Assembly (NCBI RefSeq): GCF_037201965.1 | Contig: NZ_CP147518.1 | Location: forward strand, 6,007,001-6,071,000 | Reading direction: 5' to 3' | Origin: Spirosoma sp. SC4-14 | GTDB taxonomy: Bacteria > Bacteroidota > Bacteroidia > Cytophagales > Spirosomataceae | Length of the DNA: 64,000 nucleotides | Shown here: positions 55,995-62,991 of the stretch, piece after piece | How positions within the stretch are numbered: the stretch's first letter is position 1 | Layout: the number at the start of each line of letters is the position of its first letter | Notes under the pieces: model-generated | Databases searched by the model: none | Seen by the model: the letters and a program-made list of their open reading frames with translations, nothing else | Told to the model about the DNA's origin: nothing | Position numbers and translations under genes: made by a program

Positions 55995-56627
55995 TTAGTT
56001 TTTCACGCTGCTCAGATAGGTCTTGTTGCCGTTTTTGTTAATGTAGTACTTGCCGCCCCGGGGGCCAACATAAACAGTTGCTCCACCTGGTCCTTTGGTC
56101 GTTTTATCGACCGGCGCCTTATAATCGGCGGGGGTAGCTTTTTCTTCTTTGGGCATTTTGGCCACTTTTTCAACGGGCTCTTTTTTCGCAGGCTTACTTA
56201 TTTTATCATCTTTCAGGCCAGCTACGGCGTCTTTTTCCTTCTCTGCTTTTTTAGCAGCTTTCTTAGCAGCCTTCGCCGTTTCATCAGTTCCGTTCATGGC
56301 TGCTTTATCAGCCTCTTTGGTAGCTTTTTTAGCGTCTTTTTCCGCTTTTTTTGCTGCCTTTTCTTCGGGTGTCATTGCGGCTCTGGCTGCGTCTTTAGCG
56401 GCTTTTTTCTCGGCTTTAGCCGCATCTTTGGCCGCCTTTTCCTGGGGCGTCATAGCCGCTTCCTTTGCGGCTTTTTTCTCGGCTCTGGCCGCTTTTTGAG
56501 CCGCTTTGTCGGCATCAGAAAGTTCTTTCTTCGCTTTGCTTTTGCTCGGCTTATCGTCCTGAGCAACCCCCTGGAAAGCAACCAACAGACTGAGCATAAG
56601 ACCCAGCACGGCAAACGTCTTTTTCAT
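55995..56627 (-). CDS. Secreted Lys/Ala-rich protein with PBCV-specific basic adaptor domain
   Basis: The 210-residue protein has a signal peptide (MKKTFAVLGLMLSLLVAFQG, cleavage near VAQ). A long low-complexity helix-forming region of Lys, Ala and Glu follows, with two imperfect repeats starting MTPQEKAAKDAAK and MTPEEKAAKKAEK. The C-terminus is a short domain of about 35 residues with VYVGPRGGKYYINKNGNKTYL, which matches the PBCV-specific basic adaptor domain named from chlorella viruses. This domain caps many bacterial secreted proteins; its function is unsettled. The highly charged helix suggests binding to nucleic acid, cell wall or polyanions, which is inference. Codon bias toward AAA/GCC makes the opposite strand open, but that is a shadow. 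Confidence 0.85.
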   Translation of the reverse strand: MKKTFAVLGLMLSLLVAFQGVAQDDKPSKSKAKKELSDADKAAQKAARAEKKAAKEAAMTPQEKAAKDAAKAEKKAAKDAARAAMTPEEKAAKKAEKDAKKATKEADKAAMNGTDETAKAAKKAAKKAEKEKDAVAGLKDDKISKPAKKEPVEKVAKMPKEEKATPADYKAPVDKTTKGPGGATVYVGPRGGKYYINKNGNKTYLSSVKN

Positions 56628-56845
56628 GGTAACCATATTAACTTTGTGAAATTACTTATTTGGTTGAAGCCTTAAGACGAGAAGTGACTCACAAAATCAC
56701 GTATTGAACGACGGAAAAGACTTAATTTTTTGTTAAATTTGGTATAGAGTAGGTTACCTGTTCGCCAGCGGCTAGCAGAACCTTTTCTTTTACCCCGAGC
56801 GTCTCTGTATTTTGTGGACGTTTGCCATATGCCAGTATTTATATA

Positions 56846-58975
56846 ATGACCAGCGCTGCCCCTATCCGCTCCCAGAATCCTGCCGACTACCTTAAACGCT
56901 ATTATGGCTATGATCGCTTCCGGCCCATGCAGGAAGAGATTATTAAGTCGGTGCTGAGTAGCCGCGATACGCTGGTGCTAATGCCTACTGGTGGTGGAAA
57001 ATCGGTTTGTTTTCAGATTCCGGCCCTTATGCTGCCGGGCATAACGGTGGTTGTTTCTCCACTGATTGCCCTCATGAAAGATCAGGTTGGTGCTCTGCAC
57101 ATGAACGGAATTTCAGCAGCCTATTATAACAGTACCCAAACCAGCCGCGAGCAACGTAACATTGAAGACGACTGTTTGAGTGGGAAACTCAAACTGCTTT
57201 ATATCTCCCCGGAAAAACTCCTTACCGAATCTTTTTTTGGCTTCCTGAAGCGAATAAATGTCTCACTCTTTGCCATCGACGAAGCGCACTGTATCTCATC
57301 GTGGGGGCACGACTTCCGCCCCGAATACACGCAGTTGCATGTGCTAAAGGAAACATTTCCGCATATACCAACCATTGCCCTCACCGCTACCGCCGACAAA
57401 CTGACCCGGCAAGATATTGCCCTGCGACTCGGCATGAACGATCCGGCGGTGTTTGTGGCGTCTTTTAATCGCACCAACCTAAGCTTGCAGGTACTGCCAG
57501 GGCAAAATCGTATTCAGCAGATTTTTCGGCTGCTTCAGCAGAAACCCGATACGTCCGGCATTATTTACTGCCTGAGCCGCAAATCGACCGAATCGCTGGC
57601 TACCAAATTGCAGGAAAAAGGATTCAATGCTGCTTTTTACCATGCCGGTATGGACCCCGCCGAACGCTCACGCGTGCAGGAGGCTTTTCTGCGCGACGAT
57701 ATTCGGATTATGTGTGCAACCATCGCTTTTGGAATGGGGATCGATAAGTCGAACGTCAGGTGGGTGATTCATTATAATATGCCCAAAAATATCGAGGGCT
57801 TCTATCAGGAAATTGGGCGGGCGGGGCGCGATGGAGCCGCGGCTCAAACCGTACTGTTCTATAGTTTTGCCGATGTGGCCACTTATAAGGAGATGCTGGC
57901 CGAAAACAGTCCGGCTAACCTTGGCTTGCAACTCGCCAAACTGGAGCGTATGCAACAATACGCCGATGCGCATACCTGCCGACGGCAAATTCTGCTCTCC
58001 TACTTCTCAGAAGAACTCCCCGAACCATGTGGTAACTGCGATGTTTGCCGCGACCCTCGTGTTACGTTCGATGGCACAATTCTGGCCCAGAAAGCCCTCT
58101 CGGCGATGGTCCGTGCGGGTGAGCGTGTTCCAATGAACCTGCTCATCGACATCCTGCGGGGATCGCGCAGTCAGCAGGTTTTGCAGGGCGGTTACGATCA
58201 GATTAAAACCTACGGCGCCGGTCGGGATATTCGGTTCGAAGACTGGCGAAGCTACCTGCATCAGTTAATTAATATTGGCGTTATTGAGGTTGCCTATGAC
58301 CAGCATTATGCACTACGCCGGGGCATTCTGGCCGATCAGGTGTTGTATGGTGGTCGTAAAATCGATCTGGTTCGGCCCGATGATGCGCCTAAACCCGTAG
58401 TTGAAAAAACGAAGACAAAGACCGAAACCAACCGCGACGAACTTTTCGAACGGTTGCGGGTACTACGGAAGGAACTTGCCGATGAACAGAATGTACCACC
58501 CTACGTTATTTTTACGGATACGACGCTGGAAGATATGGCCCGGCAACGACCAACCACACCCGACGCCTTGCGGAATGTGAGCGGAGTAGGCGAACGCAAG
58601 CTACACCTGTTTGGCAAACGTTTCCTGGCCGAAATTGTCGACTATGTCCGTGGGCGCATTCAGGCTGGCGAAAAACCTAAAGGTTCTACGCAACTGATCA
58701 CCCTGGAATTGTATAATAATGGTCTGTCAATCGACGAAATCGCGGCAGAGCGCAAACTCACGGCGGGCTCAATTGCAGGTCATTTAGTTCAGTTGGCAAA
58801 AGCCGGATACAGCATCGATCTGGAGTCACTTATCAGTCCAGACGAACGGCTGGAGATTGAACAGGCCATAGCCATTGTTGGCCTGGAAGAAGGTCGTTTG
58901 AAGCCCCTTTTCGATTATCTGAACGGCCGCTACGATTACAGCAAACTAACGTTAGTTGCAGGTATGTTAGAATGA
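56846..58975 (+). CDS. recQ: ATP-dependent DNA helicase RecQ
   Basis: 3'-5' DNA helicase for recombination repair. From ATG 56846 the protein has 709 residues (a TTG at 56822 is open but unneeded). Domains in order: RecQ motif 0 region YGYDRFRPMQEEI, Walker A MPTGGGKS (46-53), DEAH box at 145-148 in DEAHCISSWGHDFR, helicase C with GRAGRDG, a zinc site with four cysteines (C at about 379, then CGNCDVC), the RQC winged helix, an HRDC domain (about 535-610, ending SGVGERKLHLFG), and a C-terminal helix-turn-helix extension (LELYNNGLSIDEIAAER). Full domain set and length fit RecQ1-type proteins of Bacteroidetes. Confidence 0.96.
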   Translation: MTSAAPIRSQNPADYLKRYYGYDRFRPMQEEIIKSVLSSRDTLVLMPTGGGKSVCFQIPALMLPGITVVVSPLIALMKDQVGALHMNGISAAYYNSTQTSREQRNIEDDCLSGKLKLLYISPEKLLTESFFGFLKRINVSLFAIDEAHCISSWGHDFRPEYTQLHVLKETFPHIPTIALTATADKLTRQDIALRLGMNDPAVFVASFNRTNLSLQVLPGQNRIQQIFRLLQQKPDTSGIIYCLSRKSTESLATKLQEKGFNAAFYHAGMDPAERSRVQEAFLRDDIRIMCATIAFGMGIDKSNVRWVIHYNMPKNIEGFYQEIGRAGRDGAAAQTVLFYSFADVATYKEMLAENSPANLGLQLAKLERMQQYADAHTCRRQILLSYFSEELPEPCGNCDVCRDPRVTFDGTILAQKALSAMVRAGERVPMNLLIDILRGSRSQQVLQGGYDQIKTYGAGRDIRFEDWRSYLHQLINIGVIEVAYDQHYALRRGILADQVLYGGRKIDLVRPDDAPKPVVEKTKTKTETNRDELFERLRVLRKELADEQNVPPYVIFTDTTLEDMARQRPTTPDALRNVSGVGERKLHLFGKRFLAEIVDYVRGRIQAGEKPKGSTQLITLELYNNGLSIDEIAAERKLTAGSIAGHLVQLAKAGYSIDLESLISPDERLEIEQAIAIVGLEEGRLKPLFDYLNGRYDYSKLTLVAGMLE

Positions 58976-59072
58976 TAAAATCCTAATTTTAGCGATACCG
59001 TTGGATAATTCTTAGATCCCACATTTGGCGTATACCAATTTACCAGCTATATTCGTATTGTATTTCTGATTG

Positions 59073-59098
59073 AACCCGCACTTCGGTACGGGTTTTTT
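59073..59098 (+). terminator. Terminator after recQ
   Basis: A 6-bp stem AACCCG/CGGGTT with a 10-nt loop (59073-59094) and then a run of six T. It argues that the next gene starts downstream of it rather than at the TTG at 59070. Confidence 0.7.
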
Positions 59099-59159
59099 CG
59101 TCTTATGTTTCACAACAAATACCGTTATTTTGATTAAAGAAGTAGGTATCTCATTGCTC

Positions 59160-60215
59160 ATGGCCGCGCTTAAACCGGCCGTCGTGCCTCCTCATTTTAT
59201 GGCCGACACGAGCCGATCACTTCCGTCGTCAAACGGATTGGACAACCCCTCCTTACTAGTCGTCGACTCCTCCAAACGCGTGTTTCCTATCTATTTTTGC
59301 GGAGAGGAAGTTCCAGTTCACGAACCCCGTGTATCGCGCCGTTGGTTGCAAACGCTTCGAACCTATGGGGCTCAGGAAGAATGCCTGTTCGATCTCCGTG
59401 GTCGGGCTGCTACATTCTTTCCAATTATCGACCCAATTCTTCGGAAGTATAAAATTCCGCGTGATTTCCGATTTATGCCGCTGGCCGAAAGCGCGCTGGT
59501 CAACGATTGTGTGTCGCACAAAGGTGCTTCTGGCTATTGGCAATTAATGCCCGAAACGGCCCGTGAGCTTGGACTGAAAGTGAATAAACAAGTCGACGAG
59601 CGGCTTGACCTCGAAAAAGCGACAATTGCCGTTTGTCGGTATCTTCACCAGCTCTATGGCCAGTTAGGCTCCTGGACACTGGTGGCTGCTGCCTACAATG
59701 GAGGAATCACCCACATCCAGAATAAAATGGTACAGCAGGGGCACTCGAACTATTATCGCCTGCGGCTACACCGCGAAACGAGCCATTATCTGTTTCGAAT
59801 TCTGGCCTACAAAGAGCTGCTGAGTAACCCTCGCCAATATGCGCTGCTGCTTCGTAGCTCAACTATTGAGCAGTTAGTGAAACCACTGCCCAGTTGGAGC
59901 AAACCACTGGCTCTTCCCAAGAAAATAAAAGACGCGCCAACTGTTGAGCTTGTCGATGCCGATTATGCCGATCCAACCTGGGGCCCTCGCCCCAATAAAT
60001 CGCTGACGCAAACACCAAGTGATACGCAGCAGTTTATTGCTACAGCCAAAAAAGCATCAACACTACCGGGCACTGATCTGGAAAAACAAAACAAAGGCCT
60101 GCCTATTAAAAACCTGATGATGAGCCTTATGGTTCTGCGTTTCCGTCGCCCACGTATGCTGGACTGGAAAAAAGGCGAAGGAATTCGTCCATTACATCAC
60201 TGGGACTGGCTCTAA
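59160..60215 (+). CDS. GH23 lytic transglycosylase (MltD-like), first of three
   Basis: Cleaves the glycan strands of peptidoglycan to anhydromuropeptides. I take ATG 59160, giving 351 residues; a TTG at 59130 would add ten residues that look slightly more like a leader, and no clear signal peptide is visible in either case. An N-terminal signature PIYFCGEEVPVHEP is shared with the next two genes. The SLT domain has the catalytic glutamate in LAESALVND (Glu110 here), then GASGYWQLMPETARELG, and AAAYNGGITHIQNKM. Unlike its two neighbours it has no C-terminal beta domain: the last 100 residues are low in recognised motifs. No LysM repeat. Confidence 0.85.
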   Translation: MAALKPAVVPPHFMADTSRSLPSSNGLDNPSLLVVDSSKRVFPIYFCGEEVPVHEPRVSRRWLQTLRTYGAQEECLFDLRGRAATFFPIIDPILRKYKIPRDFRFMPLAESALVNDCVSHKGASGYWQLMPETARELGLKVNKQVDERLDLEKATIAVCRYLHQLYGQLGSWTLVAAAYNGGITHIQNKMVQQGHSNYYRLRLHRETSHYLFRILAYKELLSNPRQYALLLRSSTIEQLVKPLPSWSKPLALPKKIKDAPTVELVDADYADPTWGPRPNKSLTQTPSDTQQFIATAKKASTLPGTDLEKQNKGLPIKNLMMSLMVLRFRRPRMLDWKKGEGIRPLHHWDWL

Positions 60216-60224
60216 GCCTGCTTT

Positions 60225-60286
60225 TTATCCTATAGAGAAGCGCCGTTCGGATACGATTATCTGAACGGCGCTTCTCTATAGGATAA
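60225..60286. repeat. 24-bp perfect inverted repeat between transglycosylase genes 1 and 2
   Basis: Arms 60225-60248 and 60263-60286 are exact reverse complements over 24 bp with a 14-nt loop. It begins 9 bp after the stop of the first transglycosylase gene. Strong hairpin, but with little U-tract. Confidence 0.85.
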
Positions 60287-60378
60287 GAACTGATAAAATA
60301 ATAGAACTATACTGTTACTATAGAGAAAAATAATAGTCAAAATAGTAGAACTATGAGATCTATGTACTCACCGTACTG

Positions 60379-61608
60379 ATGCAATTTTTTGTTTCATTAT
60401 TCCTGCTGGTTAGTTTTGGCGCATCGGCTTTTGAGACTAATGCAGGTTCGCTACCCTCAACAACTAACCAGCAGGCTATTACAACTTCGACTATCTCTTT
60501 TTTGCCGAAGTTAAATCCCCTCTTGCCACCCGTATACTTTTGTGGCGAATCGGTTCCGCTCCATGAAGAAGCGGTAGCTCGGCGGTTAATAGCAGCTCTG
60601 GTTACGAACACCAACCGTGCGCAGGCGCTGTACCGTATTCGTCAGCGGGCTGCGTCTTTTTTCCCGATTATCGAGCCCATTCTGGAACGGCATCGCATAC
60701 CGGCCGATTTCAAATACTTACCCCTGGTCGAAAGTGCCCTAACCAGTTTTGCCGTTTCGCCAAAAGGAGCTGTTGGCTACTGGCAATTCATGCCCGCTAC
60801 GGCTCAGGAACTGGGGCTCTCCATTCGTCCTGGCCACGATGAGCGCCAGAATCTGGTTAAATCGACCGAAGCGGCCTGTCGGTATTTAAATTTTCTCTAC
60901 GACAGACTCGGCTCCTGGACACTGGCCGCAGCAGCCTATAACAACGGCATTGGCGCACTCCTGGGCAACATTCGACGTCAGCAAAAACGAGATTACTACT
61001 ACCTGCGCCTAAATGCCGAAACCGGTAAGTATCTGTATCGGATTCTGGCATTTAAAGAATTGCTTTCCAACTATCAAAGCTATGAGAGTATTCTTTCCGA
61101 GCAAACAATGGCTTATCTGAGTCAACCGCTTAAGGCTGGCTCAAACAACGATGATGAAGTGTTAATTCCCGAAATTATTCTGGATGAAGTGACTCAATCA
61201 GCCGTAAGTACGCCCACTCATGAATCGTTACTGACAACCGAAAATCGAACTGAAGATATTCCGTTGCCCAATGCTGCCGACGTATTCCGGGGTGGTATCA
61301 AAGCACAACTAACAGAATTTGCAGGGCTTCAACGCGGACAGGTCTGGGTTTTTCACCTCACCCGTGGTGGCCTGGCCGCCAATAAGGATGTTGAAGAGGG
61401 CGATGTTCTCTACGCTGTTGTAGAAGATATTGATACCAAAACTGGCAAACTATACCTAAGAGCCGACAAACTTTATTCGGCCAGCGACCGCCAAACCTAT
61501 TCTCTTTCTTTAGCCGCAGTTGATGCCTCAACCGGACGTATTGGCATAAAGCTCCCCGACGTCGATCAGCTTAAATCGGGCTGGATTCTCACCTGGAAAG
61601 CGTTGTAG
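60379..61608 (+). CDS. GH23 lytic transglycosylase with C-terminal beta-rich domain, second of three
   Basis: The 409-residue protein has a signal peptide (MQFFVSLFLLVSFGASAF), the shared VYFCGESVPLHEE signature (about 52-64), and an SLT domain with catalytic Glu118 in LVESALTSF, then GAVGYWQFMPATAQELG and AAAYNNGIGALL. A linker leads into a C-terminal domain (about 305-409) with VFRGGIKAQLTEF, VEEGDVLYAVVEDI and SLAAVDASTGRIGIKLP. This domain is also in the third gene; its strand pattern recalls the C-terminal part of conjugative transposon TraM proteins, which is only a resemblance by eye. No LysM repeat. Confidence 0.87.
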   Translation: MQFFVSLFLLVSFGASAFETNAGSLPSTTNQQAITTSTISFLPKLNPLLPPVYFCGESVPLHEEAVARRLIAALVTNTNRAQALYRIRQRAASFFPIIEPILERHRIPADFKYLPLVESALTSFAVSPKGAVGYWQFMPATAQELGLSIRPGHDERQNLVKSTEAACRYLNFLYDRLGSWTLAAAAYNNGIGALLGNIRRQQKRDYYYLRLNAETGKYLYRILAFKELLSNYQSYESILSEQTMAYLSQPLKAGSNNDDEVLIPEIILDEVTQSAVSTPTHESLLTTENRTEDIPLPNAADVFRGGIKAQLTEFAGLQRGQVWVFHLTRGGLAANKDVEEGDVLYAVVEDIDTKTGKLYLRADKLYSASDRQTYSLSLAAVDASTGRIGIKLPDVDQLKSGWILTWKAL

Positions 61609-61755
61609 GGTTTCAGTTTATGGTATTCGGTTTACGATTGTGGTAGAGCTACGCTACCTGTCTCCGTAAGACGCTGAGATAGCGTAACCTAATTTTTCTG
61701 AACTAAACCTTATGGCACCATTGTTGTCTATCGGTTAAATCATTACCCGATTAGG

Positions 61756-62991
61756 TTGAGATCTGCCACTCCATTAGCTATTTTACTGATTAGCACCGGC
61801 TTATTTACAGTGCCGGTAGCGTATGCCCAGAAAAATCCAGCCGCTGGCAAATCGAAACCCGCTCGGTTTGCCGTTGCCAAACCTCGGCTCGCTCCCACAC
61901 CGGCCCATCTGCATTTCTGTGGCGAAATTGTACCGACCGAACAGGGGGATGTCTCCGCTAAACTGGCTCTTGCCCTGGCCAATAGTTCGGGCTACAGCAG
62001 TCATTTGAATGGGCTAAAAACCCGTTCGGCTCCTTACTTTGCCGTTGTTGAGCCGATTCTGAGCAAACACGGTATTCCGAACGATTTCAAATACCTGCCT
62101 CTAATCGAAAGCGCATGGCAGTCTAACGCCGTTTCGTCGGCTGGGGCCGTTGGCTACTGGCAGTTTATGGACGAAACAGCTCGCGACATGGGTCTTTCGA
62201 TTGCGCCCGGCAACGACGAACGAACCGATCTTCGCAAATCGACCGAAGCGGCCTGTAAATACATCCGTTTTTTGTATAACAAGCTTGGTTCCTGGACGCT
62301 CGTTGCCGCAGCCTATAATGGAGGAGTTGGTATGGTGCAGCGCAAAATTAGCCGCGTTGGCCACCACAACTATTACTCCATGACCATGAATCCCGAAACA
62401 GGTTATTATCTGTACCGGATTCTGGCCATGAAAGAACTGTTCACGAATCCGATGTATGGGCTGGGATCGGCAGCTTTGATGGCTTCGGGGGCCGCCTATG
62501 AACAGGAACGCGAGCAGGCCCGACGGTCAGGCTGGCTTCAGGACGAAGAACCAGAACCTACCGGCGTACCGGTTGAATCATTATCAGAACCTACGAGCGC
62601 CAATGCCCGCCGGGAAGTCGTCATCATGGATAGTGTTCTGGAAGAACTGCTAAAAAAACAGGCGCTTTCACCAATGGTTTATATTGGCGATTTGTCGGCT
62701 AAGCTGGTTCGGGCAGGCCAGTTAAAGGTTGGCCAGAGCTGGACGTTTGCCCTTACTGAAGATGTTCAGATTGGGGAAGATGACCTGAAAAAAGGCGATG
62801 CGTTGTATGCCGTAATCGACGACATCGATGCCCAGGGCAATGTGTTTTTCCGGGCAACGAAAGTGATTTCTTCAGACACGCAGACTGCCATCTCTCTTAC
62901 CCTTATTAGTATGAACCCAGCTACGGGTCTGGCAGGCATTCCTAAGCCCAAAGCTATCAAGCCAGGCTGGGTGGTGCAGTGGAAGTTGTAG
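61756..62991 (+). CDS. GH23 lytic transglycosylase with C-terminal beta-rich domain, third of three, TTG start
   Basis: The 411-residue protein opens with TTG at 61756; no in-frame ATG lies upstream and the first 25 residues form a good signal peptide ending VAYAQ. The shared LHFCGEIVPTEQ signature (about 52-63) is followed by an SLT domain with catalytic Glu118 in LIESAWQSN, then GAVGYWQFMDETARDMG and AAAYNGGVGMVQRKI. The C-terminal domain (about 300-411) has YIGDLSAKLVRAG, LKKGDALYAVIDDI and LISMNPATGLAGIPKP, matching gene 2 in every block. The three genes arose by tandem duplication and probably have overlapping roles in wall turnover. Confidence 0.88.
   Translation: MRSATPLAILLISTGLFTVPVAYAQKNPAAGKSKPARFAVAKPRLAPTPAHLHFCGEIVPTEQGDVSAKLALALANSSGYSSHLNGLKTRSAPYFAVVEPILSKHGIPNDFKYLPLIESAWQSNAVSSAGAVGYWQFMDETARDMGLSIAPGNDERTDLRKSTEAACKYIRFLYNKLGSWTLVAAAYNGGVGMVQRKISRVGHHNYYSMTMNPETGYYLYRILAMKELFTNPMYGLGSAALMASGAAYEQEREQARRSGWLQDEEPEPTGVPVESLSEPTSANARREVVIMDSVLEELLKKQALSPMVYIGDLSAKLVRAGQLKVGQSWTFALTEDVQIGEDDLKKGDALYAVIDDIDAQGNVFFRATKVISSDTQTAISLTLISMNPATGLAGIPKPKAIKPGWVVQWKL

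Follow-up and report, generated by a model that had tools for sequence, protein, structure and literature searches.

The window analysed here, a stretch of 64,000 nucleotides from the 7.76 Mb chromosome of Spirosoma sp. SC4-14 (contig NZ_CP147518.1, positions 6,007,001 to 6,071,000), contains three tandem lytic transglycosylase (LT) genes on the plus strand (~59130-62991 of the window). The second and third of these genes encode enzymes ending in a C-terminal domain (CTD) that is predicted to be a VirB10/TraM barrel, as found in type IV secretion systems (T4SSs), without its membrane-crossing part. We infer, with a probability of about 0.55, that this VirB10-derived barrel docks or self-assembles in the periplasm, positioning the LT to which it is attached.

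A TraM-Like Domain at the C-Terminus of Two Lytic Transglycosylases

Genes 2 and 3 (60379-61608 and 61756-62991, both on the plus strand) encode MltD-type LTs whose last ~108 amino acids are alike (38% identity); gene 1 does not encode such a domain. The CTD corresponds to positions 61282-61605 in gene 2 and 62665-62988 in gene 3, and for neither gene was it assigned to a Pfam family above cut-off. When the CTD of gene 3 was scanned in isolation, it matched in Pfam only PF12508, the TraM family of Bacteroidota conjugative transposons, and this weakly (E 0.095). Scanning 55 CTDs singly, matches to PF12508 at E ≤ 1 were obtained for 32 of them with a best value of 7.3e-5, and the next family was matched by 8. 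NCBIfam yielded weak matches, including CydC for 21 of the 55 members (best E 0.0027), which had no support from the fold. No credible sequence relative was detected in the PDB, neither for the CTD (best 1trl, E 0.33) nor for TraM.

Profile comparison with hhalign gave a considerably stronger signal. An alignment of 21 CTDs (A1) was compared with the barrel part of 30 TraMs from the same family of bacteria, yielding a probability of 95.1%, a score of 46.2 and P 3e-8, whereas 100 column-shuffled TraM alignments reached a mean score of 11.4 and a maximum of 19.5, and the reversed alignment 10.7. Probabilities across the CTD-TraM comparisons with controls ranged from 95.1 to 96.4. A smaller comparison of 55 CTDs with 6 TraMs (A3 versus A4) was weaker but agreed (probability 84, P 7.6e-6). 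The TraM-like character of the CTD, which had been suggested in a preliminary description of the locus on the basis of a common pattern, is thus supported by two independent results, the controlled profile comparison and the predicted fold.

Predicted Fold and Missing Antenna

The AlphaFold2 model of the CTD, built from 55 sequences, consists of beta strands only, without any helix, and was predicted with high confidence (predicted local distance difference test, pLDDT, 93.1; predicted template modelling score, pTM, 0.84). The shared beta-rich domain noticed earlier in genes 2 and 3 could therefore be confirmed as a predicted all-beta domain of 108 residues. Searching the PDB with Foldseek, the 22 top chains all belonged to T4SS core complexes or VirB10 homologues (best E 2.6e-3, probability 1.00) and represented TrwE, CagY, pKM101 TraF, X. 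citri, Dot/Icm, ComB10 and the F plasmid; some of these chains are named by entry title only, and their identity as VirB10 subunits is our reading. In VIA-align the top entry was the pKM101 core complex 3jqo with Z 10.6 and 2.9 Å over 101 of the 108 residues. The 14 best entries were all of T4SS core or VirB10 type with Z from 10.6 to 6.6, and the first unrelated entry followed at Z 3.7. The full-length model of gene 3 repeated the barrel match to 3jqo (Z 11.1). These results rule out a LysM-like or otherwise unrelated fold, an outcome that had been considered possible beforehand; the predicted structure is a VirB10 barrel. TraM is usually assigned to the VirB10 superfamily, so that the sequence and the structural evidence, each on its own, lead to one superfamily (VirB10/TraM). 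We regard both fold and homology as well supported.

According to an excerpt of a paper on the T4SS (PMC9371333), the C-terminal part of VirB10 lies in a ring together with VirB9 and VirB7, and its two-helix antenna forms a ring proposed to cross the outer membrane. At the antenna site all 55 CTDs retain 5-9 amino acids, compared to 54-71 in 17 TraMs; this length was measured between two text patterns, one of which was lacking in 10 of the 30 TraMs, and three of the remaining 20 (L054, L055, L059) were left out of the range because the first pattern lay too far upstream. Removing the antenna columns from the TraM alignment, a cut chosen after the alignment had been seen, raised the profile score from 46-48 to 54.4. 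The match then extends through the last strand, pairing ...KPGWVVQWK of the CTD with ...KNNYYVLLK of TraM (in gene 3, terminal strand GWVVQWK as the counterpart of NYYVLLK). Since the antenna-free TraM match runs through the last strand and only 5-9 residues are left at the antenna site, the modelled CTD is a complete VirB10/TraM barrel minus the membrane-crossing part.

A convergent likeness, in which the CTD would merely share a common small beta barrel with VirB10 without shared ancestry, would be in keeping with Foldseek E-values never below 1e-3 and with an identity of 11-19% to the VirB10-type entries. We nevertheless consider convergence hardly credible, as the TraM profile match with its shuffled controls and the VirB10 structure match agree independently, Z falls from 6.6 to 3.7 after the T4SS entries, and the match extends over the entire domain and takes in the last strand, which follows the absent antenna.

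Distribution and Genomic Context

Within the family, the CTD profile was detected in 61 of 222 genomes, representing 9 of 36 genera. In the order it was found in 7 of 194 genomes, all from the same family, and across the phylum in 2 of 296, both from the genus Spirosoma. Named carriers are Spirosoma, Fibrisoma, Fibrella, Fibrivirga, Rudanella and Larkinella, besides metagenome-assembled genomes and one record called Flavobacterium. The latter (Flavobacterium sp. SUN052, L105) carries Rudanella-like genes 1-3 and is possibly a mislabelled or contaminated record. A divergent LT of genome G643 (L163) gave a partial CTD match with a differing last strand, and the other genomes of its genus (g31) gave no match. 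Two CTD-bearing LT genes, of Larkinella arboricola (L110, frames of 322 and then 91 amino acids) and of genome G043 (L019), are broken by an in-frame stop at the CTD.

Genomes usually have two or three CTD copies, also where TraM is absent. Co-occurrence was analysed in a sample of 61 genomes, 19 with and 42 without the CTD. TraM was present in 10 of the 19 CTD genomes and in 15 of the 42 others, which is not a significant difference (Fisher p 0.27), and 9 of the 19 lacked TraM. None of 72,556 plasmids contained a CTD match. Five pattern matches were obtained on viral contigs, none of them a relative, and in BFVD the VirB10 of a phage contig appeared at rank 2 among otherwise weak matches. Based on these searches we rejected the idea that present copies are plasmid- or phage-borne. 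The gene order recQ-gene 1-gene 2-gene 3 is recurrent in Spirosoma and in Rudanella-type loci; in the Spirosoma group the LT genes with a CTD are inherited chromosomally, in synteny and independently of TraM.

These data bear on the possibility that the LTs are VirB1-like wall-openers of the Bacteroidota conjugation system, docking via the barrel in the TraM/TraN ring. An excerpt of PMC2653234 states that classical T4SSs have VirB1 as their LT and that it interacts with VirB8-VirB11, and the CTD does resemble TraM. In addition, the second contig of the genome (348 kb) has a TraM gene, adjoined by the only TraN-type (PF13595) match of this genome. However, TraM is missing from nearly half of the CTD genomes without any significant association, two or three copies are usual where it is absent too, and the genes lie on the chromosome in conserved order with recQ and have no plasmid match. 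An LT dedicated to a T4SS was consequently rejected on the basis of co-occurrence and synteny (neighbours recQ and DUF4249), and we judge a role in conjugation very improbable. Because its genes lie on the chromosome beside recQ and occur in genomes without TraM, the CTD is not a conjugation part here.

The preliminary description had proposed that the CTD docks the LT at a type IX secretion system (T9SS) or gliding machine. Any such envelope machine needs gaps in the wall, and SprA, the T9SS translocon, is encoded in all 19 CTD genomes of the sample. It is, however, equally present in all 42 genomes without the CTD (61 of 61 in total), so that no contrast is possible and no association was obtained. 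Furthermore, neither a T9SS gene nor any other secretion or envelope-machine gene recurs beside the LTs across the compared loci, and no T9SS component carrying a VirB10-like barrel was found, none having been sought. Placement at a secretion or gliding machine was thus not borne out, and we regard it as improbable.

Catalytic Part and Relation to MltD

The earlier reading of three tandem LTs held up, as each of the open reading frames (ORFs; 59070-60215, 60379-61608 and 61756-62991) contains a Pfam SLT domain (E 1e-19 to 2e-23). Likewise, the FCGE-x-VP signature was found in all three proteins (FCGEEVP, FCGESVP and FCGEIVP). Its Cys was rejected as a functional residue because it is not kept in relatives, which read FAGE, FSGE or FCNE. 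The catalytic ES motif is present in 59 of 59 LT rows, and E92 is invariant among 40 sequences. The full-length model of gene 3 (pLDDT 78.2) comprises an MltD domain and the VirB10 barrel, between which lie a linker of low confidence and a helix; it matches P. aeruginosa MltD (8rhe) with Z 16.7 over 184 residues at 30% identity. The NCBIfam MltD equivalog cut-off of 508 bits was not reached by genes 1-3 (82.2, 86.3 and 81.5 bits). We regard the catalytic half as that of an ordinary MltD-type enzyme; its active-site Glu is conserved.

Seven SLT genes are present in the genome: gene 1, genes 2 and 3 together with a third LT with a CTD (L003), a short LT (L118), a LysM MltD (L117) and L123. No LysM was matched by Pfam at E ≤ 1 in genes 1-3, and LysM MltDs form a separate branch in the LT tree. 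The nearest LTs were compared from 23 selected genomes of this family, of which G007 and G029 have a CTD match and the other 21 do not; where the CTD is absent, these LTs are mostly short and end after the SLT domain. As the same genome also has a LysM MltD and the nearest LTs end after SLT, the CTD is an addition in one LT subfamily and not a swap in MltD itself. The former statement that the CTD stands in place of LysM is therefore correct insofar as genes 2 and 3 lack LysM, but not in implying an exchange. A second LT tree comprised 43 rows after seven named duplicates or fragments and nine LysM outgroup rows had been dropped; its backbone is weak, and the CTD label needs five changes on it.

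The main rival to our proposal is that the CTD represents a peptidoglycan- or glycan-binding module holding the LT on its substrate, as LysM does for MltD. Its position in the protein is that of LysM in the MltD relatives, nearly all copies are joined to wall-cutting enzymes, and the aromatic residues W26, F28 and W106 are conserved. Against this, the fold is that of VirB10 and not LysM, a LysM MltD already exists in the genome, and copies without an enzyme occur (see below), although standalone wall-binding proteins exist too. Moreover, the aromatics lie at alternating positions holding V, L and L in TraM, and for this reason they look buried in the alignment and would offer no sugar platform. 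Overall, we consider wall binding possible but unlikely.

Enzyme-Free Copies of the Domain

Among 142 CTD matches, 138 lie in open frames of 384-483 amino acids, and every one of these that was read is an LT; four lie in short frames (genomes G620, G667, G674 and G055). In three of these, the Spirosoma genomes G667, G674 and G055, the short frame encodes a small protein consisting of a signal peptide (identified by eye) and the CTD with no SLT domain nearby. An exclusive occurrence in wall-binding proteins, as envisaged in the preliminary description, therefore agrees with the long-frame copies read but not with the three genomes that have the domain alone. The standalone CTD is located at the thrB locus (named from sequence), where Spirosoma sp. 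SC4-14 has its third LT with a CTD. Comparison of G674 and G055 gave a ratio of nonsynonymous to synonymous substitution rates (dN/dS) of 0.14 at dS 1.12; in pairs with G667 dS was saturated and dN was 0.25-0.27. Because standalone secreted copies are seen in three genomes, the domain can apparently be retained without the enzyme, which may rest on a single loss event.

The standalone loci L164, L166 and L050 (minus strand) also share a conserved RCLDTGLLRLG..C stretch. In the fourth short frame (G620, L165), the third paralogue is split into an SLT frame of 307 amino acids and the CTD in another, overlapping frame, due to a frameshift or a sequencing error.

Proposed Function

In the mechanism that we favour, the proteins of genes 2 and 3 would be exported, with a flexible linker joining the SLT domain to the C-terminal barrel. 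Since it has no antenna, the CTD should stay in the periplasm. There it would mediate protein-protein contacts, much as the barrel does in the VirB10 ring by packing with its neighbours and with VirB9 and VirB7. It might dock on an envelope partner, or the paralogues (genes 2 and 3 plus the third LT elsewhere on the chromosome) might assemble with one another through it; either would fix where the wall is cut. The enzyme-free form, and the fact that genomes have two or three copies, would suit a module pairing with like modules or with a common partner. The CTD probably derives from a conjugation machine and has been domesticated, so that it now serves in cell-wall upkeep and not in DNA transfer. 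The trimmed T4SS-like barrel on LTs suggests that a machine part has been reused to place or assemble envelope enzymes. A bolder version, in which the antenna-stripped barrel is a general periplasmic assembly domain and LT-fused and enzyme-free copies form VirB10-like rings confining wall cutting, is speculative and in our opinion rather unlikely.

Several points weigh against docking or self-assembly of a VirB10-derived barrel. The CTD of gene 3 scores 14.3 bits on PF12508, below the gathering score of 25.1 (the genome's true TraM reaches 150.9 bits), and Foldseek yielded modest E-values, the best being 2.6e-3. The standalone forms have the distinctive stretch KTRCLDTGLLRLG in common and perhaps go back to one loss event, and a single origin of the CTD on the LT tree was neither shown nor rejected (p-AU, approximately unbiased test, 0.055). 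Furthermore, we found no interaction partner of the CTD, and much of the evidence is compatible with wall binding as well.

Organization of the Locus

Gene 1 encodes an MltD-type LT without CTD (59130-60215, plus strand). Its mechanical ORF begins at 59070; translation probably starts at a TTG at ~59130 rather than at the ATG at 59160, since the sequence LIKEVGxSLLMAA upstream of this ATG is conserved in relatives. The SLT catalytic domain (PF01464) was assigned by Pfam to 59466-59753. Comparison of the ORF with orthologues delimited a C-terminal tail, LRFRRPR...RPLHHWDWL (60135-60212), and the orthologues (L080-L115) keep the terminal LRFRR(P/S/T)R...(R/Q)P(L/I/V)..(W/M)(D/E)W(L/I/V) despite having no CTD. 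No CTD remnant was seen downstream of gene 1 in the three frames read.

Gene 2 encodes a plausible signal peptide, recognized by eye, and an SLT domain at 60703-60999 (Pfam). In gene 3 a plausible signal peptide, MRSATPLAILLISTGLFTVPVAYAQ (by eye), is encoded at 61756-61830, and the SLT domain (Pfam and full-length model) at 62077-62373. The interdomain linker (62464-62595) has mostly low pLDDT with blocks of 43-63, and is followed by a predicted helix up to ~62658.

Upstream of the LT genes lies recQ (56822-58975, named from sequence) and downstream a DUF4249 gene on the opposite strand. LT loci are often followed by DUF4249 and photolyase-like genes, the names other than DUF4249 being given by sequence reading. 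An RNA element in the locus was ruled out, as no Rfam match was obtained. Further upstream, 55995-56636 on the minus strand encodes a secreted-looking, Lys/Ala/Glu-rich protein of 213 amino acids without a Pfam match at E ≤ 0.1.

Significance and Comparison with Known Systems

VirB10 barrels are known as parts of T4SSs. No description of an LT with a VirB10/TraM domain was found in the literature searched, which misses most subscription papers. While the LT and VirB10 halves are each known, this literature contains, as far as we found, no account of their fusion, of a barrel that has lost its antenna or is used outside a T4SS, or of an enzyme-free form. A chromosomal VirB10 barrel on a seemingly house-keeping wall enzyme, without conjugation genes, would imply that the core of a secretion machine is reusable piecemeal. 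A soluble, antenna-free barrel should also be easier to purify and would allow a direct test of whether the barrel alone drives ring assembly. For the Bacteroidota, the CTD may provide a handle on the placement of lytic enzymes in the envelope.

With MltD and other GH23 LTs (e.g., 8rhe), the three proteins share the catalytic SLT domain, the conserved catalytic Glu and export; they differ from these by the lack of LysM and by ending in a VirB10-like barrel (genes 2 and 3) or, in gene 1, in a short tail that is conserved. VirB1-type LTs are similar in linking an LT to VirB10-type proteins, and in Agrobacterium the C-terminal part of VirB1, VirB1*, is released and acts alone, as described in the excerpt of PMC2653234. 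In contrast to VirB1, genes 2 and 3 are not encoded together with a T4SS. To our knowledge, VirB1* has not been described as a VirB10 barrel. TraM of Bacteroidota conjugative transposons (PF12508) is the nearest family by sequence and shares with the CTD the pattern G-(D/T)-x-LY-(A/G), (T/D)G-x-x-G(I/L)-x-x-P and a last strand (K/R)xG(W/Y)xVxxK, but the CTD stays below the gathering score of this family, lacks the antenna and is found in genomes without TraM. The C-terminal domain of VirB10 (TraF 3jqo, TrwE 7o3j, CagY, ComB10 and DotG) has the same barrel fold, with 93-101 residues aligned at Z 6.6-10.6, whereas the CTD is devoid of antenna helices, is preceded by an LT domain instead of the VirB10 N-terminal part and is encoded outside any T4SS operon.

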